NCBI GenBank assembly: GCA_027596945.1
Contig: JADGJH010000689.1
Span: 1 to 15,283 of the forward strand
Origin: Physocladia obscura
Lineage: Eukaryota; Chytridiomycota; Chytridiomycetes; Chytridiales; Chytriomycetaceae
DNA length: 15,283 nucleotides
Reading direction: 5' to 3'
Shown here: piece after piece, positions 17 through 15,283 of the stretch
Position numbering within the stretch: position 1 is the first letter of the stretch
Layout: every line of letters starts with the position of its first letter
Made by a program: the position numbers and the translations under genes
Notes under the pieces: generated by a model
The model's database searches: none
What the model was told of the DNA's origin: nothing
The model's input: only the letters and a program-made list of their open reading frames with translations

Positions 17-3000
17 TCAAAAACGACAATGAATCACAGACGGAGTCCCAAATATAAAAAATGCAGCTCCACCTCCAAAAACAGCCATTGCAACTGCAAC
101 TCCGATAAACATGGCCGCAGAAGAAGCGCCGCGTCTACTACCAACAATCCACTTCCAAACACGTCTCAATCCCCAAGAACCGCGGGCTTCTGGCACAGCA
201 GCAGTAACAGCGGTAGTTGCAGCAGTAACGGGAACTGCGGCAGCTGTTGCCGCATTTTGCCTTCTCGCGTGTTCAACACACCATTGCTCATAACTCATCA
301 AGACGGCTGGTAATGGTTCACTTGCACCATTTGCTGTTGCTGTTGTTGTCGCTGATACAATTTCGTCCCTTACGTCGACGTCAATCACTGTTGCAAGGCG
401 TGTTGTCATTGCCGCTGCTTCCATTGCCAACATTGCTTTTGTGACAGCAGCAGTAGAAGAAGAGGAAGAAGATTCATGCATTAGTCGGCGGTGTTGGTGG
501 TGGTGCTGTTGGTGTTGGTGTTGGTGTTGTTGTTGTTGTTGTTGTTGTTGTGTCGGACTACTTTGTTGCAGAAGCTGATGCAGCTGTTGCTGTTGCTGAA
601 ACTTTTGTTGCTGCTGTTGTTGTAGCTGCTGCTGGAAAATCTGTTGTTGCTGCTGTTGCACTTGATGCATATGCTGTGCTTGCTGCATGTTTAAAAGCTG
701 CAGCTGTTGCAGATTATGTAACGAGACAAAAAGATCTCCATTACTGCCTGGCGCCCGTACAGTGATTCCGAATTGAATTGCGTTTTTTTGTACTTGTAAT
801 GGTAGTTGCGCAAGCGGAATTAATTTGTTCACAGCTGCTGCTCCCTGAGGGTTGAGAAGAGATTGCTGCAAACCTAATTGTTGTTGCTGCTGATGCGGCT
901 GCGTTCCTCCAGGTATAACTACGGACTGATTTGACGACTGCTGTTGGTGCAATTGATGTTGTTGGGATGATAGTAAAGCAAAAGATTGACTGTTTTGCTG
1001 TTGTTCAGGAGAAAGTGTTTGCTTATACTGCTGTTGCTGTTGTTGCTGTTGTTGTTGTTGTTGTTGCTGTTGCTGCTGCTCCTGTTGCGTTTCTTGACGT
1101 TGCAACAACTGCTGCTGTTGTGCATTTGAAATAACTTGCTTTCGTTGAAACTGTTGCATAGCTTGCGCTTGATTTGCCTGCGCTTGCTGCTGTTGTTGCT
1201 GGAGAAACTGACTTTGTTGTTGTTGGAGAAATTGTTGTTGTTGTTGCTGTTGCTGTTGTTGCTGCTGCTGAATTGGTATGGTATTTTGCGCCACATCAGC
1301 ATTTTTGGAAAATGCATTTGGTGGCGGTGATGGGACAACAACAACAACAGGCGAAGAAGATACAGCAGCAACTGTTGCTGCCGCCGCCGTCACTGCCGAA
1401 GAAGAAGAAATACTTCCACGACCTTTTTTCTCTTGCTTAATTTTTGACTGCACCATTGGCGGAGATTTGGTTGTTGTTGCTGTTCTTTGTTTACCACCTC
1501 CGCCACTATTTCCCGCTTTTTGTTGCTGAACTGCTGGCAGTGTTTGAGGCAGTGGCGCTGTTTGTGATTGTTGAATTTGAGGCTGTTGCTGTGTTTGAGG
1601 TTGGAGTTGGAGTTGCGGCGATTGTTGGACTTGTTGTTGTTGCAGCTGCAGTTGCAGTTGTGCTTGTTGCGGCTGCTGCTGCTGCTGTTGCAATTGTTGT
1701 TGTAACTGTTGTTGCTGTAACTGCTGCTGTTGCAACTGTTGTTGTTGCAACTGCTGCTGTTGCTGATGCTGGAATTGTTGAACTAAATGCTGATGCTGTA
1801 ACAACGCGTTCGAAAAGTTGAATGGCGAGACACTCGGGTTACCAGAAACAGGCAATCCAGATAGCAAAGGATGTTGAAGTTGCTGTAGCTGTTGTTGTTG
1901 CTGTTGTTGTTGCAGTGAATATTGTAAGCTTTGACCAACAATTGTTGGTTGAGGAATTAATCTGTGGGAAAGACATATCAGGTTAAATAATAATAAAATA
2001 ATGATAATAATAATACCCGTACGGTATAGCCCCATTGCCAGTCATATTCACATTTGCAACAGCACCGTTCATCAAATCATTTCCAGACAGCGACCGAATC
2101 GGGTTATTCAAAAGCCGTTGTCGGAACGGCTGAGTCGGCGGTGAGATTGAATTATTGGGCGATTGCGGGAGAACAACAGAATTTCCATCAACGCCTGCAA
2201 CAGCAGCGCTACCTATACTATTACTCAGCATCGGAATAGTTGGAGTCATGATCGGAGGCGGCGTTGCAACAGTCGCGATGGTCGCGGCTAATACCATCCC
2301 TGACGGAACGGGGGCAGTCGCAGGTGCTACTACTAGCGGTGGGGGCACTAGATGTGCCTTGAGATTTGTTTTACCACGCCCGGATATTTGATGCACCGGC
2401 GCTGCCAGTGCGAGATCAGCTGCTGCCGATGCAGCGACAGCCGCTGCAGCACGTTTCGCGGCACCTCTTTTTGGAGGCATTCCTTCCTTCGGTACAGAAA
2501 CTGGAACAAGAGTAGCGGCGACAGCCGCAGTAACAGCTGTACTGGAAGGCACATTTTTTTCTGAACCAATCGCTGCAGCTGTAGTTCATCAAATTCAGAA
2601 TAAATTAAAATAAATGAAAAAATAATTCAGCTCATACCTGTTTCAATTATCTCTGCGCCATAATTTTCCGTTTGCATGTGATCAGTGGTCGTTGCAATTC
2701 CGTTTGAAAGTGTAGAAGTCACTACAAAAGATTTTCCTGCACTGTCAGCAGGTTCGGTTATATCACTGTTACCAGCAAAGGCAATTACTTCCGCAGAGCC
2801 AAAGTTTACCACTGCACTACTATCTTCAACCACCACAGAAAATTTCTTCTTTTTCTTTTTTACATCGCCAGGAGCAGCAACAACAGGAATGGCGACACCA
2901 ACAGCAATATCGCTAAAATCAGTCTGCGACGAGCTTTCTCTCTGAAGTTGCTGTTTCCGTTCAAGCGTCTGCCGCATCTCTTCAAGATCCTGTGCCTGTT

Positions 3001-5222
3001 TTTTCAAGGCATTATTGGCAGCCAACAGTGCCTCGTTTTCACCAGTGAGACGCGCGTTCGCGGAAACAACAGCATCGCGATCAATCGATAAATTTGTCTT
3101 CTCATCAATCAAATTCTTGACTTGATTCTGTAATATTTCTTGTTTGGCTGTGCTATCAGTGACATAATTCGTGTTTGTTTGGTGCAATGACTCGACCTCG
3201 AGCGCGAGGAAAGCTTTCTCGAGGACGAGAGCCTTGTTTGTTTCAGTCAGTTCTTTGACCGTTTCAAGCAAAGATTGGTGCGCGAGAGTTAAAGAGTCGT
3301 ATTTTTGTAATGTATCGTTGTTGGCGTCAGTCAGATTCTTGTTTGTTTCGGTAAGAGTGTTACTTGATTCGGTCAGTTCTTTGCTTGACTGCATCAAATC
3401 GTTATTCTGCTGCGATAAATCGGTGACGTTTTTCAGTAAAGCTTCATTTTCGAGTGCCAAAGTGTGGCACTTCTCGTCCAAGGCTTCAGCGTTTTCAACA
3501 AGAAACCTCTTTTGTTTTTCCAGTTCAGCTTTTTCTACAACCAGCAATTCGGAATCTTCAAATAATTGCTGTACGCGATGAGTCAAACTCTGATGCTCTT
3601 GCCCCGCAAATTCGACCTGTTTGTGCAAATCCAACTTCTCTTGAACCAACGTCTCATTTTGCAATACGAGATTTTGGTTTCGCTGCGTAAAATCGGCCAG
3701 TTTATCAGCAATGGATTTGTTTTCCACCAAAATCGTGTCGCGTTCATATAATACTGCGTTGAATTTGGCCGCGTATTCAGACAGAATCGTGTTGTGTTCG
3801 GACAAAGTTGTATCGTATTTGGCTGTAAAGTCTGCCAATTTTTCGGTCAAAGCATTGTTTTCGTGCGCGAGCGATAATATACGTGAGTCGGACTCGGCGC
3901 AATTTGAATCGAGCAAACGCGCAGAAATTTGCAAGTCTGCGGAAAGAGAGGAGTTTTCCGCCTCGAGTAATTCTACGCGAGATATTGACTCAGATTGCAA
4001 AAGTGATAAATCTTGAACAGTTTTCTAATTGGAACATTAAAATTTAGTTGTTTGTTTGTGGTGTGTGTATGTAAGCGTGCATGTTGTAACAATAAAGAAA
4101 CCAACCAACCTCAAGACGAATAACATTATCAAAAGCATTAAGGGCATAATCAGAAAAAACAACATGTAAACCGGCCAGGAGAATATGTTCCGCCGGTACC
4201 GTGTGACTGATGGTAACAGGATCTGATGCTTCGGGGTCAGGTTGCTCGTCGAAACCACCGCGATCGTGTGATTCGACGCCAGATAATGATGAAGCGGAAG
4301 AATAGGTTCTCTTTTTTTTCCCGTTCGCCGCCGTGTTTGCTTTGGAAGGCATCACATCTGGGTGAGGTGGAGAAAGTGATAGTGGAGAACGAATTGCGCT
4401 GGCAGTAGCACCAGCAACAATAGAACGCTTGCGTTTCTGCGAACCTTTAACAGCAGAAGAAGAATTATATGTATTAGATTGAGGCGGTGGTAGTTCAGAA
4501 AAAAGAAGCAGATGGCCAGCATCTTCGGCGGAAAATCGGGAATCTTTTATGTTGCTTTGCTTTGCAGCTGATGCAGTGAGATTTGAGGAATGATTGGCGT
4601 CATTGGTATTGATGAAATCACTTGCTTCACGCACAATCAGGTTGTTAAGGTTACTGCTATTATCGTTGTCTTCACTGCTGTTTTTGGTGACTTGTGACAG
4701 CGGTACGGAATCGGACGATAGGGGTAGGGCGAGACTTAATTGAAGCAAAGGACGACCGCGCGCATCACTAAATGCAGCGCGGGCAGTCCGAGCAGCTGCC
4801 GATGCATCTAAACTGGTAGTAGTTGATGGGAATGCAGGAGCAGGTGATGTAGATTCAAAATGTTGTTGCTGATGCTGATGCTGATGCTGTTGTTGTGTTG
4901 GCTGTACTTGTAGTTGTTGTTTCTGTAACGGCGGTGATGGCGCTGATGAGGCTAACTGCTGGACGCCGACAATAACACCGTCTTTGAGTGCCCCTGCCCC
5001 AGCCACGAAAGCCGCAGTCGCCCCAGCTCGCTGGCTCTGACTTCGATGATCTCGGTCTCGCCCACGCCCCCGACTGGGCAGTGGCACGCCAACCACTCCC
5101 AGTCCACCTGCCACCGTAACAGTCCCAACCGCAACTGCCTCTCCAGAACCAGCACCGACTCCAGCTCCAGATTTGTCAATGTGCTTGTCCTTTTGCCGCT
5201 GCTGTCGCTGCAATGTGTCCAT
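17..5222 (-). CDS. Large coiled-coil, glutamine-rich, predicted tail-anchored protein (4 exons, 1668 aa)
   Basis: I do not recognise the family. Exons on the minus strand are 5222-4110, 4024-2638, 2578-2017 and 1961-17. The introns are 85, 59 and 55 nt (GTTGGT..TTAG, GTATGA..ACAG, GTATTA..ACAG), and the junction phases 0, 1 and 2 all match, giving 1668 codons plus TGA. The ATG at 5222 is the first in its frame after an upstream stop at 5318-5316. Order of regions: residues 1-371 are low-complexity with basic clusters QKRKR (262-266) and KKKR (302-305) and an RGRP AT-hook-like core near 155; 383-735 form a coiled coil; 834-1020 are Ala/Pro/Thr-rich with a PKRGAAKR motif; 1032-1510 are Gln-rich; 1637-1658 are hydrophobic. 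Inference: a membrane-tethered scaffold, possibly on the nuclear envelope because of the basic motifs. A golgin-like or ER/vesicle tether would also fit. A further undetected intron near the 3' end cannot be excluded. Confidence 0.8.
50..115 (-). other. C-terminal transmembrane segment (tail-anchor)
   Basis: Residues 1637-1658 are an uncharged stretch of about 22 residues rich in Ala, Val, Gly, Phe and Ile (AMFIGVAVAMAVFGGG followed by AAFFIF). A basic, tryptophan-containing segment precedes it (GLRRVWKWIVGSRRG) and only ten residues follow before the stop. There is no N-terminal signal sequence. This is the layout of tail-anchored proteins inserted post-translationally with the bulk of the chain in the cytosol or nucleoplasm. 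The lumenal tail does not end in the PPX motif of KASH proteins. Confidence 0.7.
493..1930 (-). repeat. Glutamine-rich tract (mixed CAA/CAG), with Leu and His interruptions
   Basis: Residues about 1032-1510 of the minus-strand protein are dominated by Gln. The longest pure run is 17 Gln (1028-1078), followed by runs such as the one near 1220-1270. An LQQQQ-type short repeat lies around 1680-1790, and a Gln/His stretch closes the region near 493-545. The tracts mix CAA and CAG rather than a single pure triplet. Lys/Ser/Val/Pro-rich islands interrupt them near 1320-1530. On the plus strand the same DNA reads as (GTT/GCT/TTG)n and creates many false open frames. Confidence 0.95.
2933..3991 (-). 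other. Coiled-coil region with heptad-like internal repeats
   Basis: Residues about 383-735 are rich in Leu, Glu, Lys, Asn and Gln, with Leu at seven-residue spacing and almost no Pro or Gly. Several units repeat: KLADFT occurs twice about 45 residues apart (residues 434 and 479), and KELTE occurs twice (around 587 and 628). Three consecutive LTE/LTD heptads lie near residues 588-606. This is the signature of a parallel dimeric coiled coil. It ends before a Ser-rich segment and a run of six lysines near residue 763. Confidence 0.85.
4110..4193 (-). other. Non-repetitive block before the coiled coil
   Basis: Residues 344-371 (AEHILLAGLHVV... to ...FDNVIRLE) are the only high-complexity, hydrophobic-patterned stretch in the first exon. 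They run straight across intron 1 into the coiled coil (KTVQDLSLLQ). The contrast with the surrounding Ser/Ala/Gln-rich sequence suggests a short folded or binding module. I cannot name it. Confidence 0.4.
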
Positions 5223-5292
5223 TCTGAGTAATTCGATTAAGGTTCGATTAAGTGGATTGATGCGATTGCGATCGATTGGTTGCGCTTTTTGG

Positions 5293-5436
5293 TTACTCGC
5301 TTGTTCGCTTGCTCGCTAGCTCGTACGTCCGTTCGCTTATTTTTTTCGCTCGTTCGTTCGTTTGTGCGTGCGTTCGTAAGCTCGTTTGTTTGGCGGTTGT
5401 CTTTTGGCTGAATTCAATGAAGGATTTTTGATCCAT
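5293..5436 (-). other. Candidate upstream ORF (47 codons) in the leader of the minus-strand gene
   Basis: An ATG at 5436-5434 opens a frame that starts MDQKSFIEFSQKTT, runs through the CGAA repeat without a stop, and ends with TAA at 5295-5293, 70 bases before the main ATG. A second short frame (ATG at 5461-5459, TGA at 5416-5414) overlaps it in another frame. If transcription starts upstream of 5461, both could reduce translation of the main protein. The transcription start is unknown, and the composition is repeat-driven, so a functional peptide is doubtful. Confidence 0.3.
5296..5388. repeat. Degenerate TTCG/CGAA tetranucleotide repeat
   Basis: About 90 bases consist mostly of variants of TTCG, CTCG and TGCG (for example CGTTCGTTCG at 5351-5360). 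They read CGAA/CGAG on the minus strand, where they would lie in the 5' leader of the minus-strand gene. The copies are diverged, so this is an old or interrupted microsatellite. Confidence 0.75.
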
Positions 5437-5724: not shown

Positions 5725-8254
5725 ATGGCCCACAAAGTTTTAGCGTCGGCAACTGATGCCTCCATCGCGTCCGCCTCTGCTGCAACTTCTTCTGCTAGGG
5801 CTGTTACCAAATCCAGTGCCATCAATAACTTCTCAAATGAAGACTCTTCTGCAAATAATAATTACGGCGGAAATGCCAAAAATCTGATTCAATCAGAAGC
5901 TTCGCTGCTTGGCGCCACAACAATCAGTAATTCCACCGGTGGTGTTGGTATAAAGCAGCATCAGTCTTTAATTGCTGCTGCCAAGCTCACAGCAACAAAA
6001 AACATTGTTGCAAGCACCACTCCTGCTAGTCGCGTTTCTCTCACACCAAATAGCTCTCCAGGTACTTCGAAAGCAATTCTTGGACGTGGCAGAATTTCCG
6101 ATCTTGAGTCGGTGGATTTTGGTAATGAGATTGAAGAGGAAAGTGATGGCAGTGTCACCGAAGATGCAAAAGCGACACACAAGGAGGTGCAATTTTTGGA
6201 AAGCTTGGGCGAAATGAAGAGTATTTTGAGGGAAGGAAGTGGTAAGCTTGTTTATTTCATGCATGTGATTGACGAAATTGGCAGGCGGACAGACAACAAA
6301 AGCACTTGACTTGTGTTGCGGGCAGGGGCGGCGTACACTGCTTCTGAGCAAGAAATACCCAGGCGTGCACTGGTACGGACACGACCAGTCGGCACGCCTG
6401 ATTTCATTGGCGGAGCACGAACAGAAACAACACGGCAGACAGGCGGGCGCCAACGTGGTTTTCACGGCCGGCGCCACCACGCAACTCCAACTGCCGCACG
6501 CCGACGCCACCTTCGACGCCGTGCTTCTTCTGGGCAACGCATTGGGCCGAGCCGGTGACGACGGGGCTGTTTTTCTGCACGAAGTCGCACGCGTGCTGCG
6601 TCCCGGCGGCCGCGTTGTTGTCGACGCCGCCGACGGGGCAGCCGCACGTGCCGCCCTCGCCCTTGACAAACAGTCGCACACCTGGCAGTGGATCGACGAC
6701 GCCTACTTCGTGTGCCGTGAGCGCCAGCTGAGCGCCGACGGCAAGCGCCTGACTGTGCGCGAACTAAGAACCTCCGCCTCCTCCAATTCCACCGGTGCTG
6801 TTGTTCGCGACCAATTCTATCGTTTGCGTTTGTATGCCCGCGACGAGCTTGTCGCTGTTTTGCGCGAGGCCGGTCTTGATGTTGTCAATCCCAACGAGGA
6901 CAGCGCAATTGAGACGAACCCGCTGGATTTGCATTGGGGAATCTCTGTACCGCGTATTATTGTCACGGCGTTCAAAAATCCAGACAAATTCCCGCCGACC
7001 GTCCATGCTGCCCTACGCTCTGCCAAAGACCTCCAGCACCCAAAGTCACTTTTCGATAACTTACACGCAACTGAAAGCGCGGCTGTGCCGAAAAAGACGC
7101 ACAAAGACGACCTTTTCGAGTCGCTCGTTGTCATTCTCGGCGATCCCTCCCAGCCATGCGTTGGCAAACTCAACAACACATGGAATGCCGAAGATTTCAA
7201 CACGCGTGAAAAACTCGTCAACGCGCTCGTCGAACTTGGATATTCCACCGAAACAAATCTCTCTGTTCTTGACTCGCATGAATCTCTCCACGAGTCCCTC
7301 AAACGTCTCACAAAGAAAAAGCAACACTTTATTTTTAACCTTTGCGACGAAGGCTTCGATAACGAGGCCCTCAAAGAACTGCACGTACCTGCAATTCTAG
7401 AAATGATCCGTCTGCCATACTCGGGTGCCGGCCCTAACTGTCTTGCCTACTGTTATGACAAGGGCCTTGTCAACAGAACAGCTGACGCTCTCGGCGTTCC
7501 AACCCCGCGCGAGACATTCTTCCTCTCGGACGTCGGAACTCCCGCCGTCGCAACACTCGCCAAGCTCGACAATGTAATCCAAGAGCAAATAAAATACCCA
7601 GCCTTCATCAAACCCATTAAAGGCGACAACTCTCTTGGTATTACGCCACGCTCGATCGTGCATAACGCACGCGAGCTTGAGTCGTACATGTCGGAGTTGC
7701 ACAGTATAGGAATACGCGACGTTGTCGTGCAAGAATACTGCCAAGGCACTGAATACGGCGTGGGTATGATTGGAAACCTCGCGACCGGGTTCCATTTTTT
7801 CCCTGTGCTTGAAGTCGACTATACGAAAATCGTAGCGAGGAATCTCGCACCGATTTTAGGATTCGAGTCAAAGTGGGATCCCGCATCGCCGTACTGGTCG
7901 GATATTTCTTACAAGCCTGCGACGATTACCGATAAGGTGAAGGCTGACTTGCACGCGTGGTGTATTGTTCTGTGGGAACGGTTTGGGTGCCGTGATTACG
8001 CGAGATTTGACTTTCGAAGCGATTATGGCCGTGGCGATGGGTTTGAAAAACCCAGTGAACGAAAAGGTACAATAAAGCTGCTCGAAGTTAATCCTAATCC
8101 GGGATGGTGTTGGGATGGCAAGTTTTCGTACATGGGGAAATTTGAAGGGTTGGACTATAAGGATGTTTTGGGGCTTATTTTGAAGGCGGCCCGGGACCGC
8201 ACAACTCTTGATGAAAAAAAGGAAGCTGCGATGAGTTCCCAGCAGCAGCAATAA
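5725..8254 (+). CDS. SAM-dependent methyltransferase / D-Ala-D-Ala ligase-like ATP-grasp fusion protein (828 aa)
   Basis: Two exons, 5725-6241 and 6285-8254, flank a 43-nt intron (GTAAGC..GCAG) and join in phase to give 828 codons plus TAA. Residues 1-170 are low-complexity Ser/Ala/Thr/Asn with no clear signal. Residues about 175-400 are a class I methyltransferase and about 450-815 an ATP-grasp ligase, followed by a short Gln tail. The pairing implies one bifunctional enzyme that methylates and ligates (amide or peptide bond formation with ATP hydrolysis) the same small substrate; that substrate cannot be read from the sequence. The start at 5725 is chosen for its context (CACAATGG, A at -3 and G at +4). 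An in-frame ATG at 5629 would add 32 Phe/Ser-rich residues translated from a pyrimidine-rich leader, which looks less likely. The gene is probably cytosolic. Confidence 0.9.
6242..6284 (+). other. 43-nt intron at the edge of the methyltransferase domain
   Basis: Donor GTAAGC follows the codon for Ser172 plus one base, and acceptor GCAG precedes 6285. Removing it joins EGSG directly to GQTTKALDLCCGQG, about six residues before the SAM-binding motif. Reading through the intron in the upstream frame meets TGA at 6307-6309, so splicing is required. It is the shortest intron in the window. Confidence 0.88.
6294..6960 (+). other. Class I SAM-dependent methyltransferase domain
   Basis: The SAM-binding glycine motif ALDLCCGQG covers residues 179-187. 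The acidic residue ending the second strand is in YGHD (Asp206). FDAVLLLG (249-256) corresponds to the motif IV strand, and VLRPGGRVVVD (276-286) is the typical post-motif loop and strand 5. A late segment LRLYARDELVAVLREAGLDVV matches the strand 6-7 end of Methyltransf_11/25-type enzymes. The substrate is not indicated. This stretch is clearly richer in G and C than the rest of the window. Confidence 0.88.
7122..8218 (+). other. ATP-grasp ligase domain, D-Ala-D-Ala ligase type
   Basis: An N-terminal subdomain starts SLVVILGDPSQPCVGK. NLCDEGF (524-530) and LPYSGAGPN (549-557) follow, in the positions of the family's conserved Asn/Gly and IPYTG motifs. The ATP-binding lysine and glycine loop are in FIKPIKGDNSLGI (613-625), and VVVQEYCQGTEYGVG (652-666) is the adenine-pocket strand with glutamates. 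CRDYARFDFR (741-750) and LLEVNPNPG (771-779) carry the Mg2+-binding Asp, Glu and Asn. All core ATP-grasp residues appear intact, so it should be active. Peptidoglycan is absent from fungi, so the acceptor is more likely another amino acid, peptide or secondary metabolite intermediate. Confidence 0.87.
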
Positions 8255-8567: not shown

Positions 8568-11500
8568 ATGGACGACTTTATTGCCAGCTGTGTTGACGAA
8601 GTAGCTCTCGAGGGTCCACAAGGTTTGGCTCCACTAGTTGTTGTTATTTTAATTTTGTTTTGGGATCATTTTTTGACAGGTTTCTTTCTTCAGGTTGCAC
8701 ACTGGATCGTTTATGGACACTGATTGCAACGAAATGGCAGGCAGATGGACCCGTTGATGTCGAACGTTTAGCAACAGGAGCAGAACCACCTGCGTTCACT
8801 GGTTTGGTTGTTTTTTCTTTTTTTTGTGTGGACTACACCACAGAATTTTTTTTGAGTTTTGGTTTTTGTAGAGATGGATGAATCTTTGCGTAATTATGTC
8901 TGGCCGTACCTTCTTAGTGACGAATCTATTTCGATCGAGCCTGATAATGTATATCCTCTTTTTTTTTCTTTTTTTTCTCGTCCTGATATACATTTTCAAG
9001 GTTTCGAAAGAAGAGCTTTCCGCTAAAAAACAGGAACAAGTGATGATCGAATATCCGCGTTTGCGCATTATTGCGTGTGAATCTGCGCGACACTTTGCGC
9101 TTGGAATTTCAAATGTACCTCTATCATACTCCTGCGTAATTTTAACCTAACCAAAAAAACACACACACACACACACACAACAGATAAAGCTCATTAGTGA
9201 TGTCAATGTCAAAACTTTGACTATAATTGCAAAATATAGAGTTGGTGGAATCACTCAGTTTGAGCTCGCGAAATTTTTGGGAATGGATCCTCGAAACTTG
9301 TTTCATCAAATCAAAGTATTGCTACAATTGAAACTAATGTACGCAATTTTAAAATATCTTTCATCAGTCTTTTTTGGGAAAAAAAAAATTGACTTTGAAA
9401 GTGCAAACACAGTGTCAAGGCACCGGCGACCATCAAAGGCTCTCATTCAAATCTTTGCTTGCATAAACGTTTTGCGCATAAAAACGCGCATTATGTCACG
9501 TTTTTGAATTCGCAAAAAGTCAAGCACACTGACGAGATTGATCAAATCGATGAAAATGTAATCAAAGAACAAATTCAGGCAATTATGGATGCGCGCAATG
9601 TAGAGCGCAAGGCCAAAGCAGTCTATAGTGGAATTGGGCTGAGAACTTTTCAATGCGAAATTGTCAGGCATCGTGTCACAGTGTTACTGGCTGGTGCAAA
9701 CAATCATGCCATGTTAGCTCAGGATGTGATGGATATATTGGTAAGCTAGAGGGGCGGGGTTTCTTCATTTTTTCAATTTTTTATATCCTCCATATGCTAA
9801 CCTTGTTTTCATGCATTAATTATAATAATGGTTCAGATTGGCCCAAAGATTGAACGAATAGAGCGAAAAATGTTCAACAAAGTCTTGAACTCACTTTCTG
9901 ATAAAGGTTATGTTGAAGTATTTGAAACACCGATTCCAAAACCAGCACCAACTTCAACCGGAGAGCAAGTTTCTTACAACCGGTGTATCCGTTTGCTCCA
10001 ATTGTACAATACTGCCGGCAGCACCTCAAAAATTTCGCCCGAAAATCGTGGGGTTACTGGAACAAGTGACACGGGAAATAACGCAGATACATCGTTGAGC
10101 GGAAAATCATATCGCGAAAAAATGCAGCAAGAGCCCGAAAAACAGAAAGTTCTTGGCGGCGGTGCAGTTTGCGTAGACCTGCCCATAGAATACCAAGTAT
10201 ACAATTTGATTTGTCTGAGCGGCACATCGGGCACAACTGCCGGAGTAATAATACGATCCCTGTCGAATCTCGAAGGCCGAATTCTTGAACGGATACTAAA
10301 GCGACTTCAAAAACCGCCATCGTCCGGTCAAGAAGCTCCGATAAAAAGCGATCTGGAGTTTCAAGGTCGCGAAAGGCGGTACCGGTATTTTTCAACAGAG
10401 AATTATTATTTGGCAAAAGGAACGGCCGAAGAAAATGCAGTACAAACTTTTCGTATAACCAGCGCGTTGGAGGCGTTGTCGCCATTCTTGGCGGCAGACT
10501 CGCCGACTCGTATTGGGCGAAGTATAAAAGCAACGCGAGCTGCGCTACCGCTTTCGCGGAAAAGAAGGTTTGAAGTTGGCGATGATGAAGTCGATGGTGA
10601 TGGTTCAAGCGGGGATAGTGAGGGAGAAGTTTTTTCGACTGCGAATATTGATACTCCGCGATCATTAAGAGAGCGTAAAAAACCGATTTCGTTTGTTGTT
10701 GACTTGGAGATTTCGGATCATGAAGGTGTGCAATTTCAATTTGGCTTTTGTTGATGAATTAATTTATATTTATTTCCAGTTAATGATAGTGACGTACGGC
10801 TTTGAATTTTTCCAGATACTTATTTTGTATTTCTTTTGTCTGAATATATAATTTTTATCAGGCAGATCAAATTGTATGTGCTGGCTGCAACGAAGACAAA
10901 GACGATGAATTAATCCTCCTCTGCGATCATTGCGACAAAGGAATACATACATATTGCGCAAATCCACCCCTCGATAAAGTTCCTGATGATGACTGGGTAG
11001 GTGTTCCGAATAGTTTATTCTCTTGATGTTGACAAAAAAAAAAGTTTTGTTCCGATGACTGCAAAAACAAAGGAAAAAAAATATTAGAGCCACTTGCACG
11101 ACCGCCATCCAAAAAATCGAAAATTAGAATGGGTTCTGATGACGAAGAGTCTGATTTTCATGAAGACGATATTGCAGTTTCTTCGGACGAAGATTCAGAA
11201 GTAGTAGAAGAAATATTTCCTCCGCGTCCTACTCTTTCTCTGAGCAACTCAAATTTGACAGGTAAGACATTATCGAGCCCATCGACACCAATCAACAGAT
11301 CCAAAACCAAGAGCGCGCTTTCTGAAAATTTGTCAACAGAAAACGCAGCTTCTCTTGCCAAAACCCCGTCGTCCGCTGCAAATAGTGAGCTTCAACCGAC
11401 TCCCGGACATGAAAGTGCTGTGTCAGAAGTTAATGCGCCGACATCCGTTGAACCGCTGGGCAAAATAAAAGGGAAGGGACGGTCAGGAACACACGCGTCA

Positions 11501-14500
11501 GAAAAAAAACGACAAGAAACACGCATAAAACCAGTAAAAAAAGACCACACAATGAAATCAGCGGAATCCGTGAATCGCACGAAACGGGAAAAAATTATTT
11601 TGCAAATGATTGAAACGCACCGAATTCTAGAACTCAATATGGCGATGGCCGAGATTATTCAGTATTTGGTCATGCCAGACAGAACTGAAGGTGATGTGCG
11701 CTTTGCGCTGGATAAACGCACTGTTCGACGTGATGGAGTCATTTTGGCTGATCGCGGCTTACTGAAGAAGATTATGGTACAAGTTCCAAAATTGAACGGA
11801 AGGTCGGACACAAAAGAATTTTTTATTCACCCGTCTTTGAGTTCTGATCATCCTGAAGTCCTTAGTTATATTGGTAATTTCACTTTCTTTCTTTTTTTTT
11901 TTTTTTTGACATCATTTCTCTTGGACAGCAACACGGTCTGAAATGAGTTTGAATGTTCACACCTCGAAACCTGCGTATTATGAACGAGAAAAAGTGGAAG
12001 ATCTTGATAGTGCCGAAGACATGAAGCGACGATTTGGAAATCCATCCGCCGAAGCCAAAAGTATCGCAGATTCGCAAAATCAAACTCCGTCAATTGAAGT
12101 ACAGCTTCAGACCATTGCACAACCGGATCCATTTCGATTTTGGCTGAATACTGCCAAGAAGTATGGCTACGTGATGGCTAAAGTTCTTCGAGTCAAGATT
12201 ATTCATGAATGGATGTTCAAGGAGTTTGTTTTGAAACAAAATTCTGACAGCACGCGTGAACCTGGTCTTTTCACACCCCTAGAACTGTATCATCGTATGT
12301 CATTAGATGTATTTATGAAAACGATTGGTATAAGCGTCGAATCACCGGCTTTAGACGAATATCTTTCTCAACATGACAGCTCTGAATGTGGCTTGAGAGA
12401 TCTTCCCGAAAACTTGAGGCAATCAATTCTTTCAAAGACTTACAAACTCAAGTCGTCAGTTTTGAGCTATTTAGACTATTTACTCGCGTTGGGAATTGTG
12501 GCAATAAAAATTAAAAACTCACAAGCAGAGAACATTGATCGAACTGTAGGTGTAGCTGTACATGATGAATTGGTCGTCAATACCAGAATTCTGATATTTG
12601 ACTATCGAAAATTGCCACCAACATTTGTGAAGACATGTGTTGTTGAAACCGACGAAAATTTGCGGCAATATTGGCTTCAAATGGAACTAATTTATAGAAA
12701 ACTTTTGCAATATGATCCAAGCATTTTTGCCAACAGTAATAGTTCGGACCCGCCCTTGAAAAAAAGGAAATTAGCTAAGCATTATATTTACCCAAACTCG
12801 AGCTCAGAAGTCGCGAAGATTCTCACGCTTCTTCAACCTCGTAATTGGCAATCAAGTTATCTTTTTTCGCCGGAAGAAACTGCTGTTTTGGAAACACATA
12901 TCGATCGAAAAAATGGAGCTTTTCCGACTGAGGACAATGCTAAAATAAAGGATATTGCCCAAGAGCTTGGCATTGCTGCTGCCCACGTGAAATATTACTT
13001 TCATAGAGCTCAGCAGAACTATGAAGTGCGGTTATTGACAATGCGAGACAAACAAAACGAAAAGGCGAAAAAATATGCAAAATCTTCTTTCTCTGTGGAA
13101 AGCAACAGAGATTTACTTGAGAGAAATAGACAAAAAGTCCAAGAAGTTTTAAATCGTACAAGCAAATCAATTAAATTTGCATCTGGTGGGCTCAGTCTAC
13201 ATGCAGCTTCTAATCTACACGTATCTTCATCTGTGTCTGGATTACAAATTATCAACCGCAAAATCCGAAACAGACTGATTTGGCCCACTGAAGATGAAGA
13301 TAAGTTAATGCATGCTTACGCCATCGTCAGGCATTTGTCGATTTCAAGGAATACACGATTCAGTTGGGTTCCAATCGGGAAAGTGCTTGGAGCGCATCGT
13401 GAACTATGCCGACGATGCATGCTCAGGTTATTAAAAATAAAAGCTAACGAGGAGCGGATAAATTTTCTGGTTGCTGAGTGGGATGATAAGTTTGCGGAGG
13501 CGGTGGACAACGGAAGTTTAGAAAGTTTTCCCGTCACAAATGACTTGAGTTCCATTAATATTTCTGAGCACGCGAAATATTACCGAGAACACTCTGGAAA
13601 AGTTGGGAGGTTAAAATTTTTATGTATGTCTGTATATCTAAAGCTAACGTACACGAAATGTAATTTTCTTTTTTTTTTTTTTGTAACATAGCATAAAATC
13701 CGAAAACAAAGAAACACAAATGACATCGAATTTTTTGCCTTTGCCTGCAAATGTTGAGTCTACGTATCAGATTTACCGAGTCTATAATTTTGTTGGAACG
13801 TCTGTAAAAGAAACGTCATTCGTTGACCATTTGGGAAATGTGCCCACAGTTAGAGCCAAAATGTCCATTCTCTACAGTCACAGCGGCCTGTTGGACGTAG
13901 GAAATCGTCAAATCACAGACTTTTTCTTTCATGATGAGACTTCAGATCATGAAATCAATATTATCAAATTCATGGCATGTGTAAAGGTAAGTGTGTTTGT
14001 GAATACTTGTTTAAAATACAAGAATTGATATATGTTCATCTTTTAGACAGTAATGATAACGCCAGAAGTTCGATATGATTCAGACAAAGCATTTCGCTTG
14101 CTTTATCAATTTGCAACCACCATTGTGAACGAAGGAACCGATAGACTTGTTAGTGACGGAACTTTGGTCAAATTTAAAAAGGGCCACAAAGATCGAATTA
14201 TGCCAGGCCGTTCCTTGACTTTTTCCGACAAGTAAGGATTTTTGTCACTATTATTGCAATTAATCAGTAAATGAACATGCTGTTAGGTTTTTTCAAACCT
14301 TAATTGGTATTTATCCACCGAGATTAATTCCACAGTGTTTAGTGGCGATCAGTAAATTGGATGAATATGATCTGGAAGCAAGAAATCCTCCTAATTTGAC
14401 TGGCGGTACGATGTGTGTGATGCTGGATATGGCTTCTCGGAAGGAATTACAGTTTATTCCCACATTCGCTGATAGTGGAGGTATTTTTTGCCAAATATTA

Positions 14501-15283
14501 TATTATCATCACGAATTTTTTGGAATTAATTTTTGCCTATCATAGATGAAACTCCAGATATTCTTATCCGCAATGACAACGTTGAATCAAAGATGGAACT
14601 GGATACATCGTTGACGAATTTAGAAACTTTGGACACTTGGAGCAAAAATTACGACCACGAAATTGAAGCTGCAGTTTCGAAAATCGCTCAAAACATTCGA
14701 GCTACAGCATCGATAATAAATAATGTGATTTGTTTTTCAAAAAAAGACGGTCTTGGGATTATGGAAATCAAAGTTTGTTGTTTGATTCTTAGAAACCCAA
14801 AATTAAATTTTATTTCTCCCAGAAAAATGCAATCGAAGTAAATCCAAACTTGACAGATTCCCAAATTTCAGAAGCTATCAATGTATTGCTTAAAACTCGT
14901 CTTTTCAGATCAGATATTCCAATCATTTCACGTGTCGGACAAAAAGCTCCTCGATTTGTGTCCGCAAAATACTTGAAACTGTGGTTTACGTCCATTCATC
15001 CAGACCCAGAAGTCTCCATGTTCGATCCTTCAAACTCGGCGACAAGCTTTCCTTTGCGTCTATGGTATGATATTCATGGAAATATCATTCAAAGTGCATT
15101 GAGAGGATGTTTGGAGTGTGCTATGGGTCACATTATAGAGCGCCCTGGTATCACAGAGGTGCGTTTGTACTAATTTTTTTTTTTTTTTTTTTTTAAAAAA
15201 TTGGGAGTTACAGATTAATTTTTTGGTAGGAGTGAAGCCGATTATGAATGAAGGAGAGTTGAGTGACGGGTTGGAAATGGGGA
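8568..15283 (+). CDS. TFC3: TFIIIC largest subunit, B-block binding (GTF3C1/Tfc3/Sfc3 homologue), 3' partial
   Basis: TFIIIC binds the A and B boxes of tRNA-type genes and recruits TFIIIB and RNA polymerase III; this subunit contacts the B box. The start MDDFIASCVDEVALEGPQG is typical of the family. A B-block winged helix lies near 119-170, further winged-helix stretches follow near 390-460 and 800-900, and a conserved central block starts near residue 965. The C-terminal half ends, at the window edge, in the family's motif ERPGITE plus a GVKPIMNEGELSDGLE helix. About 1897 residues in 17 exons are visible, close to family length (yeast about 1160, human about 2100). Two features stand out: a PHD finger (586-631) in the acidic linker and a homeodomain-like helix-turn-helix near 1207-1270. 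Basic clusters (KRRFE near residue 520, KKRKL near 1183) suit nuclear import. The assignment is strong and the accessory domains are a separate question. Confidence 0.95.
9159..9178 (+). repeat. (AC)10 microsatellite in an intron
   Basis: Ten perfect AC units lie in intron 4 of the TFIIIC gene (9115-9183), directly before the acceptor ACAACAG. The repeat occupies the place of the usual pyrimidine tract, so length variation could affect splicing. Confidence 0.95.
9184..9500 (+). other. TFC3: B-block-binding winged-helix region of TFIIIC
   Basis: Residues 119-170 (LTIIAKYRVGGITQFELAKF, then a DPRNLFHQIKVLLQLKL helix) form a winged helix. The wing continues across intron 5 into LIVKAPATIKGSH. 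This is the segment that aligns with the B-block domain of GTF3C1/Tfc3, where the equivalent human stretch reads as a helix-turn-helix followed by a hydrophobic 'nGLI' strand. It is the DNA-recognition module for B boxes. Confidence 0.85.
10780..10793 (+). other. TFC3: Predicted 14-nt microexon before the PHD exon
   Basis: Fourteen bases lie between acceptor TTCCAG (ending 10779) and donor GTACGG (from 10794). They take the frame from phase 1 to phase 0 and encode the tail of V plus NDSD, joining SDHE to ADQIVC. Both flanking introns (54 and 68 nt) then have normal length. The alternative is one 132-nt intron from a GTGCAA donor at 10728, which is also in frame but uses a poorer donor and would be the longest intron here. 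Confidence 0.6.
10862..11062 (+). other. TFC3: PHD finger inside the TFIIIC subunit
   Basis: Zinc ligands follow the C4-H-C3 order: C586-x2-C589-x11-C601-x2-C604-x4-H609-x2-C612-x14-C627-x3-C631. The core CDHCDKGIHTYC and the PPLDKVPDDDW stretch before the last pair are textbook PHD. The last spacing is x3 rather than the usual x2. Exon 9 (phase 0-0) carries six ligands and Trp625; exon 10 supplies the last two cysteines. The acidic DKDDELILLCD strand and the Gly in place of the cage Trp resemble PHD fingers that read unmodified H3K4 rather than H3K4me3. That specificity is inference. Acidic Ser/Asp stretches flank the finger on both sides. Confidence 0.9.
11892..11907 (+). repeat. T16 run in an intron
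   Basis: Sixteen T within intron 10 of the TFIIIC gene (11874-11928) lie upstream of a TTGAC branch-like site and the GGACAG acceptor. This is an ordinary pyrimidine tract at extreme length. Confidence 0.9.
12843..13034 (+). other. TFC3: Homeodomain-like helix-turn-helix
   Basis: Residues about 1207-1270 show FSPEETAVLETHI (helix 1), GAFPTEDNAKIKDIAQELGI (helix 2) and AAAHVKYYFHRAQQNYEVR (helix 3). The hydrophobic pattern and the VKxxF core are those of a homeodomain. The invariant Trp48 is Tyr, and the DNA-contacting Asn51 position is Arg, so it is either a divergent DNA binder or a structural relic. A basic KKRKLAKH segment lies about 30 residues upstream. Confidence 0.6.
13272..13445 (+). 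other. TFC3: Myb/SANT-like segment of TFIIIC
   Basis: Residues about 1350-1407 run RLIWPTEDEDKLMHAYAIV, then SWVPIGKVLGAHRELCRRCM and RLLKIK. The pattern W-x-EDE-L followed by W-x-x-I and a basic helix is Myb-like. It corresponds to the 'TWSMQED...VGRRARYIVK' part of human GTF3C1, so it belongs to the conserved scaffold and not to an insertion. Confidence 0.65.
15174..15194 (+). repeat. T21 run in the last visible intron
   Basis: Twenty-one T followed by six A lie within intron 16 (15159-15213). The exact length is prone to sequencing and replication error, but it is outside coding sequence. Confidence 0.9.

Follow-up and report, generated by a model that had tools for sequence, protein, structure and literature searches.

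The largest subunit of TFIIIC in the chytrid fungus Physocladia obscura (Chytridiales, Chytriomycetaceae) contains a complete PHD finger of the C4HC3 type. The finger (residues 586-631) is encoded in frame at bases 10877-11062 of the window, by which we mean the whole stretch of DNA analysed here, that is, the entire 15,283-nucleotide contig JADGJH010000689.1 (C654). The finger is real and conserved, and it gives a known subunit a new architecture. We believe that it is probably a tethered reader of histone H3 with unmodified lysine 4 (K4me0), through which TFIIIC would gain a hold on histones at Pol III genes; the binding itself is deduced from the sequence and the predicted core fold of the finger.

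The gene and its product

The gene, an orthologue of GTF3C1/Tfc3, lies at 8568..15283 on the forward strand, as do all of its features given below. Our model, built by hand and combined with Pfam domains, has 17 exons; the splice sites were picked from reading frames and GT-AG signals, without a gene finder. After splicing, an open frame of 1897 codons leaves the contig at the end of the window; the 16 introns are 48-96 nt long each, with GT-AG borders throughout. In an exon-by-exon search of the genome, the C-terminal part of an orthologue matches another contig (C1111).

The order of the Pfam domains is WH1, B-block, PHD, eWH and, C-terminal to the latter, DUF6581. Apart from the PHD finger, this order, from the N-terminal WH through B-block and eWH to the C-terminal DUF6581 region, is shared by GTF3C1 (TFIIIC220) and Tfc3 (tau138). 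Three domains score above the family cut-offs: WH_GTF3C1_N (PF23704, residues 1-116, 36.6 bits vs 27), B-block_TFIIIC (PF04182, residues 125-192, 68.8 bits vs 22) and the extended winged helix eWH_GTF3C1 (PF24101, residues 800-900, bases 11567..11869, 56.6 bits vs 30). DUF7599 (residues 256-343) remains slightly under its cut-off of 27 with 26.3 bits, and DUF7646 (residues 392-469) is under the same value with 18.1 bits.

The core of the B-block winged helix (WH2) is encoded by exon 5 (9184..9338), which carries the PF04182 match. Exon 7 (9837..10725) encodes WH4, the DUF7646-like region at about residues 392-469, and the beginning of the linker; the correspondence of this region to human GTF3C1 is supported by a profile built from PHD-less relatives. 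Exon 8 is a microexon of 14 nt (10780..10793), modelled from the frame and the splice sites, which together with one base of exon 7 encodes VNDSD. The NCBI model of the gene also uses this microexon and has the same residues, and an alternative model without it likewise leaves the PHD finger in frame.

In a six-frame search of the Physocladia genome, PF04182 has a single match. This family alone is not specific, since it also matches in four of 14 prokaryote control genomes. Searched with a profile made from six PHD-less relatives, the solved structures yield human GTF3C1 (8cli_A) with E 9.1e-51 and yeast tau138 with E 1.9e-24. The profile of seven chytrid orthologues matches 8cli_A with E 8.8e-11 for the whole chain; here the best stretch is C-terminal, and no single stretch is significant by itself. 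Judging by the family cut-offs and by the similarity to the solved GTF3C1 and tau138 outside the PHD finger, the product of the gene is the largest TFIIIC subunit. A second copy without the finger was not found in the genome by six-frame and exon-by-exon searches.

The window contains further open reading frames. One ORF at 6269-8254 (forward strand) combines a class I methyltransferase with a D-Ala-D-Ala-ligase-like ATP-grasp domain, as found by Pfam. Long ORFs at 17-2041, 2627-4024 and 4044-5315 (reverse strand) have no Pfam match at E 0.001, and the first of them is very glutamine-rich.

The PHD finger

Exon 9 (10862..10996) encodes the core of the finger with six of the eight zinc ligands, namely C586 (10877), C589 (10886), C601 (10922), C604 (10931), H609 (10946) and C612 (10955), as well as the acidic wall D595/E596 and D602. 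In our hand-built model it is followed by an intron of 48 nt inside the finger (10997..11044, between W625 and F626). Exon 10 (11045-11873) then starts with FCSDDC (11045..11062), which supplies the last two ligands, C627 (11048) and C631 (11060-11062).

A sequence-only reading of this DNA had proposed a complete C4HC3 finger in frame at 10862..11062. This is confirmed, as all eight ligands are encoded and PF00628 matches residues 586-628 with E 8.6e-9 and 35.7 bits (cut-off 24). When the genome is searched in six frames, the raw exon reaches 40 bits and is one of 14 PHD matches; the C4HC3 pattern was found in none of 20000 shuffles of the protein. The last Cys pair is spaced C-x3-C, and the spacing is identical in nine of nine chytrid fingers; the usual spacing of this pair in PHD fingers, BAZ2A and BAZ2B included, is C-x2-C.

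The same reading had called the core exon symmetric, a form that suits domain insertion. Exon 9 does have the phase 0-0. However, the symmetric exon alone is not the whole finger, because the last Cys pair is in exon 10. Shuffling of the whole domain on one symmetric exon is therefore unsupported.

Elsewhere in the genome, two PHD fingers are found in one frame of 436 aa (G000:C908:7565-7954, reverse strand, L011). This contig holds the sole other genome match to the TFIIIC finger (61% over 38 residues, which is too short for a tree).

The NCBI model of the same gene (HK100_011325, P0001) is 99% identical to the protein of the window. In this model the intron extends to 11089 (acceptor 11090), so that FCSDDCKNKGKKILE and the last two Cys are lost; in addition, FFQTLIGIYPPR is missing further on and the last exon differs. 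The motif W-F-C-S-x-x-C is kept in seven of seven other Chytridiales orthologues, and for this reason the truncated finger is most likely an annotation slip. The comparison with the orthologues favours the splice of the sequence-only reading over the NCBI acceptor. Potentially, the truncation may be a real alternative splice instead.

Distribution and conservation

We retrieved 24 TFIIIC-alpha homologues (P0001-P0008 and P0021-P0036), all of which have PF04182; twelve BAZ2B proteins of fish (P0009-P0020) that were also hit are left out of the TFIIIC counts. Each of the protein searches scored the 7986-7992 candidates with the most shared words. A search of homologues for PF00628, which the sequence-only reading had suggested as a check, separates the set clearly: by Pfam and by pattern, the finger is present in 9/9 homologues from Chytridiomycota and in 0/15 others. 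The carriers are Physocladia, Obelidium, Entophlyctis, Chytriomyces sp. MP71, Podochytrium, C. confervae, C. cf. hyalinus, C. hyalinus and Synchytrium endobioticum; Chytriomyces and Podochytrium are taken by us to belong to Chytridiales. Physocladia was counted from the model of the window, since the database copy P0001 is truncated and fails the full pattern.

The position of the finger in Physocladia is between WH4 and the extended winged helix, in a linker of about 330 residues, and it has the same location in the seven other Chytridiales orthologues and in Synchytrium. The earlier assignment of the finger to a place between two winged helices of one TFIIIC-alpha protein therefore holds. 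The homologues without the finger are that of Hyaloraphidium (Monoblepharomycota) and that of a relative (P0026), seven which we take to be from Basidiomycota (P0008, P0024, P0027-P0031), two of presumably plant and green-algal origin (P0025, P0032), and the four sequences P0033-P0036. In P0022 and P0026, about 103 residues separate WH4 from eWH, and these linkers contain 0 and 1 Cys, respectively. Spizellomycetales, Rhizophydiales and Blastocladiomycota are not among the named sources of the retrieved proteins, which does not imply that the finger is absent from these groups. On this sample, the distribution of the sequences indicates that the finger predates the split of Chytridiales and Synchytriales. 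It may either have arisen after Hyaloraphidium split off, or have been lost by Hyaloraphidium.

The finger is strongly conserved in Chytridiales, while the flanking linkers diverged. Among eight Chytridiales sequences, three of which (P0006, P0007 and P0021) are closely related and lift all values alike, the mean pairwise identity of the finger is 71.5%, compared with 42.1% for the preceding and 29.8% for the following linker. The values for WH4, the B-block and eWH are 70.7%, 68.9% and 46.2%, respectively. When the alignment of these eight is scanned in 46-residue windows, the top five out of 1850 start at residues 586-592, that is, on the finger.

The combination of PHD and TFIIIC already sits in the databases, as the automatic UniRef names of two orthologues (P0006 and P0023) start with "Zinc finger PHD-type". 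In the titles and abstract openings of the open-access articles found by searching for this architecture, a PHD finger in TFIIIC is undescribed, and a recent TFIIIC review (PMC12409998) contains no word beginning with "PHD".

The class of the finger

Compared by sequence with solved structures, the finger is closest to the PHD finger of BAZ2B (E 2.8e-14), followed by BAZ2A, Ehd3, KDM5A and KDM5B PHD1. Human GTF3C1 and yeast tau138 are absent from the best 60 of the 63 solved chains that match the finger, in agreement with the earlier statement that the human and yeast proteins lack a PHD finger.

We calculated AlphaFold2 models for the contiguous 45 residues of exon 9 with eight orthologue rows, so that the last Cys pair lies outside the model. 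The best model has a mean pLDDT of 79.5 and a pTM of 0.56; the mean pLDDT of the other four goes from 69.8 down to 48.4. A short helix is found at 595-597, ahead of the first strand. In a Foldseek search, the PHD fingers of BAZ2B and BAZ2A are the best matches by E-value (2.6e-5 to 8e-4), while the TM-scores of UHRF1 (0.88) and ATXR5 (0.86) are slightly above those of BAZ2A/B (0.78-0.85 by query length). An AlphaFold model had been another check suggested earlier; it gave a PHD-like core for exon 9, although the five models varied widely.

The residues that would contact H3 can be compared with those of BAZ2A. At the positions of D1688 and E1689 of BAZ2A, an acidic pair is found in 8/8 Chytridiales (D595/E596 here, Asp-Asp in some). 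Also present in all eight are the equivalents of L1692 and P1714 and the Asp of the CD-x-C motif (D602 here), which has a role in H3 contact, and the column of the Trp that recognises methylated K4 is Gly in all eight. If the subclass is defined by an Asp or Glu at the position of E1689 together with the lack of this Trp, all eight fall into it. The roles of D1688, E1689, L1692, P1714 and the Trp are described in the excerpts of PMC5415848 and PMC4291147. According to the former, D1688 and E1689 lie on a 3-10 helix and form the acidic wall, and H3 binding drops 17-fold when both are neutralised. Fingers with this wall mostly lack the methyl-K4 Trp, as the two occur together in five of 36 human fingers (PMC5415848).

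Both the PHD fingers of BAZ2A (TIP5) and BAZ2B and that of Physocladia thus have the acidic wall and lack the methyl-lysine Trp. The former adjoin a bromodomain, unlike the TFIIIC finger, and BAZ2A belongs to the NoRC complex, which represses rDNA (excerpts of PMC4291147). By sequence and by its predicted core fold, the finger groups with the type of BAZ2A/B, KDM5-PHD1 and UHRF1. The term "histone H3 reader", which the sequence-only reading had used, can be kept as a prediction: the closest structures, the acidic wall and the missing Trp form a signature that suggests H3 binding with a preference for unmodified K4. The selectivity for K4 may be mild, since BAZ2A binds K4me1 as well as K4me0 (both about 2.5 uM, K4me3 28 uM; excerpts of PMC4291147), and since, according to the entry titles, the structure of Ehd3, a close match, contains H3K4me1 and that of one UHRF1 entry an H3K4me3 peptide.

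The Synchytrium finger is different. It is found at the same place (P0023, residues 701-747) and scores 25.2 bits against the cut-off of 24. Its acidic wall is replaced by Ala/Thr, with the Thr at the position of E1689, so that the acidic residue is missing; the CD Asp is replaced by Ala, and the DW motif with its Trp is gone. Acidic-wall reading of H3 can therefore not be what keeps the finger in Synchytrium.

Proposed function and alternatives

In human TFIIIC220, WH4 (367-437) and eWH (612-714) touch the B-box, as do WH4 (334-416) and eWH (550-640) of yeast tau138, and in the human complex WH3 and eWH become ordered on DNA (excerpts of PMC11811891 and PMC11724288). As described there, the linker between WH4 and eWH is plain in human (437-612) and in yeast (416-550), whereas in Physocladia it has about 330 residues and contains the PHD finger. 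Since the profile of PHD-less relatives supports the correspondence with the human and yeast domains, the finger hangs between two domains that contact the B-box.

From this position, the finger would grip the N-terminal H3 tail with K4 unmodified or little methylated, in the acidic-wall mode. TFIIIC anchored at the B-box could simultaneously grip a flanking nucleosome, and the finger would supply a weak, histone-dependent affinity, as a second grip at sites found through the B-box. The occupancy of tRNA genes and other B-box sites would then become sensitive to H3K4 methylation. The outcome might be that the finger helps opening, that it holds TFIIIC at silent genes, or that it marks extra TFIIIC sites. 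In human cells, H3K4 methylation accompanies active tRNA genes (excerpts of PMC11346459), so that the role of a K4me0 reader might be holding or repression just as well as activation; a K4me0 reader that promotes activity does not fit simply with this observation.

The H3 tail of Physocladia itself is unreadable in the assembly, because the H3 matches (G000:C335:2721-2975, L017; C915:1-159; C1049:1-123) are either cores cut off by the edge of a contig or a divergent copy.

On the other hand, the finger could be a protein-protein or structural module, which binds a non-histone peptide (of another TFIIIC or a TFIIIB subunit, or of a silencer) or gives the WH4-eWH linker its shape, with histone contact absent or minor. 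The host protein is already a DNA binder, Synchytrium retains the finger without the residues that contact H3, and UHRF1 PHD structures exist with the non-histone ligands PAF15 and Stella (entry titles). However, the residues kept in Chytridiales include the acidic pair, the equivalents of L1692 and P1714 and the CD Asp, and the closest structures are those of H3 binders, and we regard such a module as rather unlikely.

Whichever of these holds, the finger might be present only in some transcripts, with splicing switching the reading on or off. Skipping of exon 9 keeps the frame and gives no stop, and use of the NCBI acceptor (11090), which has the right phase, removes the last Cys pair in frame. 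Yet the skip would leave two orphan Cys, and the whole finger is found in the protein models of seven other Chytridiales, which makes a splicing switch improbable in our view.

Hardly more can be said for a reader of H3K4me3 that draws TFIIIC to active chromatin. The example would be TAF3 of TFIID, likewise a general transcription factor subunit with a PHD finger of its own and a known H3K4me3 reader (PMC3770614), and the H3K4me marks at active human tRNA genes (PMC11346459) would fit. But in 8/8 Chytridiales the methyl-K4 Trp is replaced by Gly, and the same eight have the acidic wall that is largely exclusive with this Trp, so that we consider such a reader very improbable. Finally, although the NCBI model P0001 breaks the finger, an artefact (two adjacent genes, a misjoined exon or a pseudo-exon taken as one protein) has next to no probability and a two-gene or misassembled origin is rejected, since orthologues in other genome records are single models with the finger in the same position, the matches of the contig are collinear with a single Obelidium protein, and the finger is the most conserved stretch.

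Compared with the tethered H3K4me0 reader proposed here, TAF3 belongs to the Pol II system and reads H3K4me3, whereas the finger described here belongs to Pol III and has the signature for unmodified K4, and would have the opposite methyl preference; homology between the two is claimed for the PHD finger alone. As to its history, we see an even chance that Chytridiomycota built an H3K4me0 reader into TFIIIC, by which B-box DNA and nucleosome would be read out in combination and tRNA genes and extra TFIIIC sites discriminated by chromatin, and that the residues for this reading were later lost in the Synchytrium lineage.

In the usual view, TFIIIC locates its genes via A-box and B-box DNA, with chromatin mostly left to partners. 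If the proposed reading is true, the choice of Pol III genes by chromatin would become directly testable via one domain in the DNA-binding subunit. Furthermore, the parallel with TAF3 would point to separate origins of histone reading by basal factors, one in the Pol II and one in the Pol III system.
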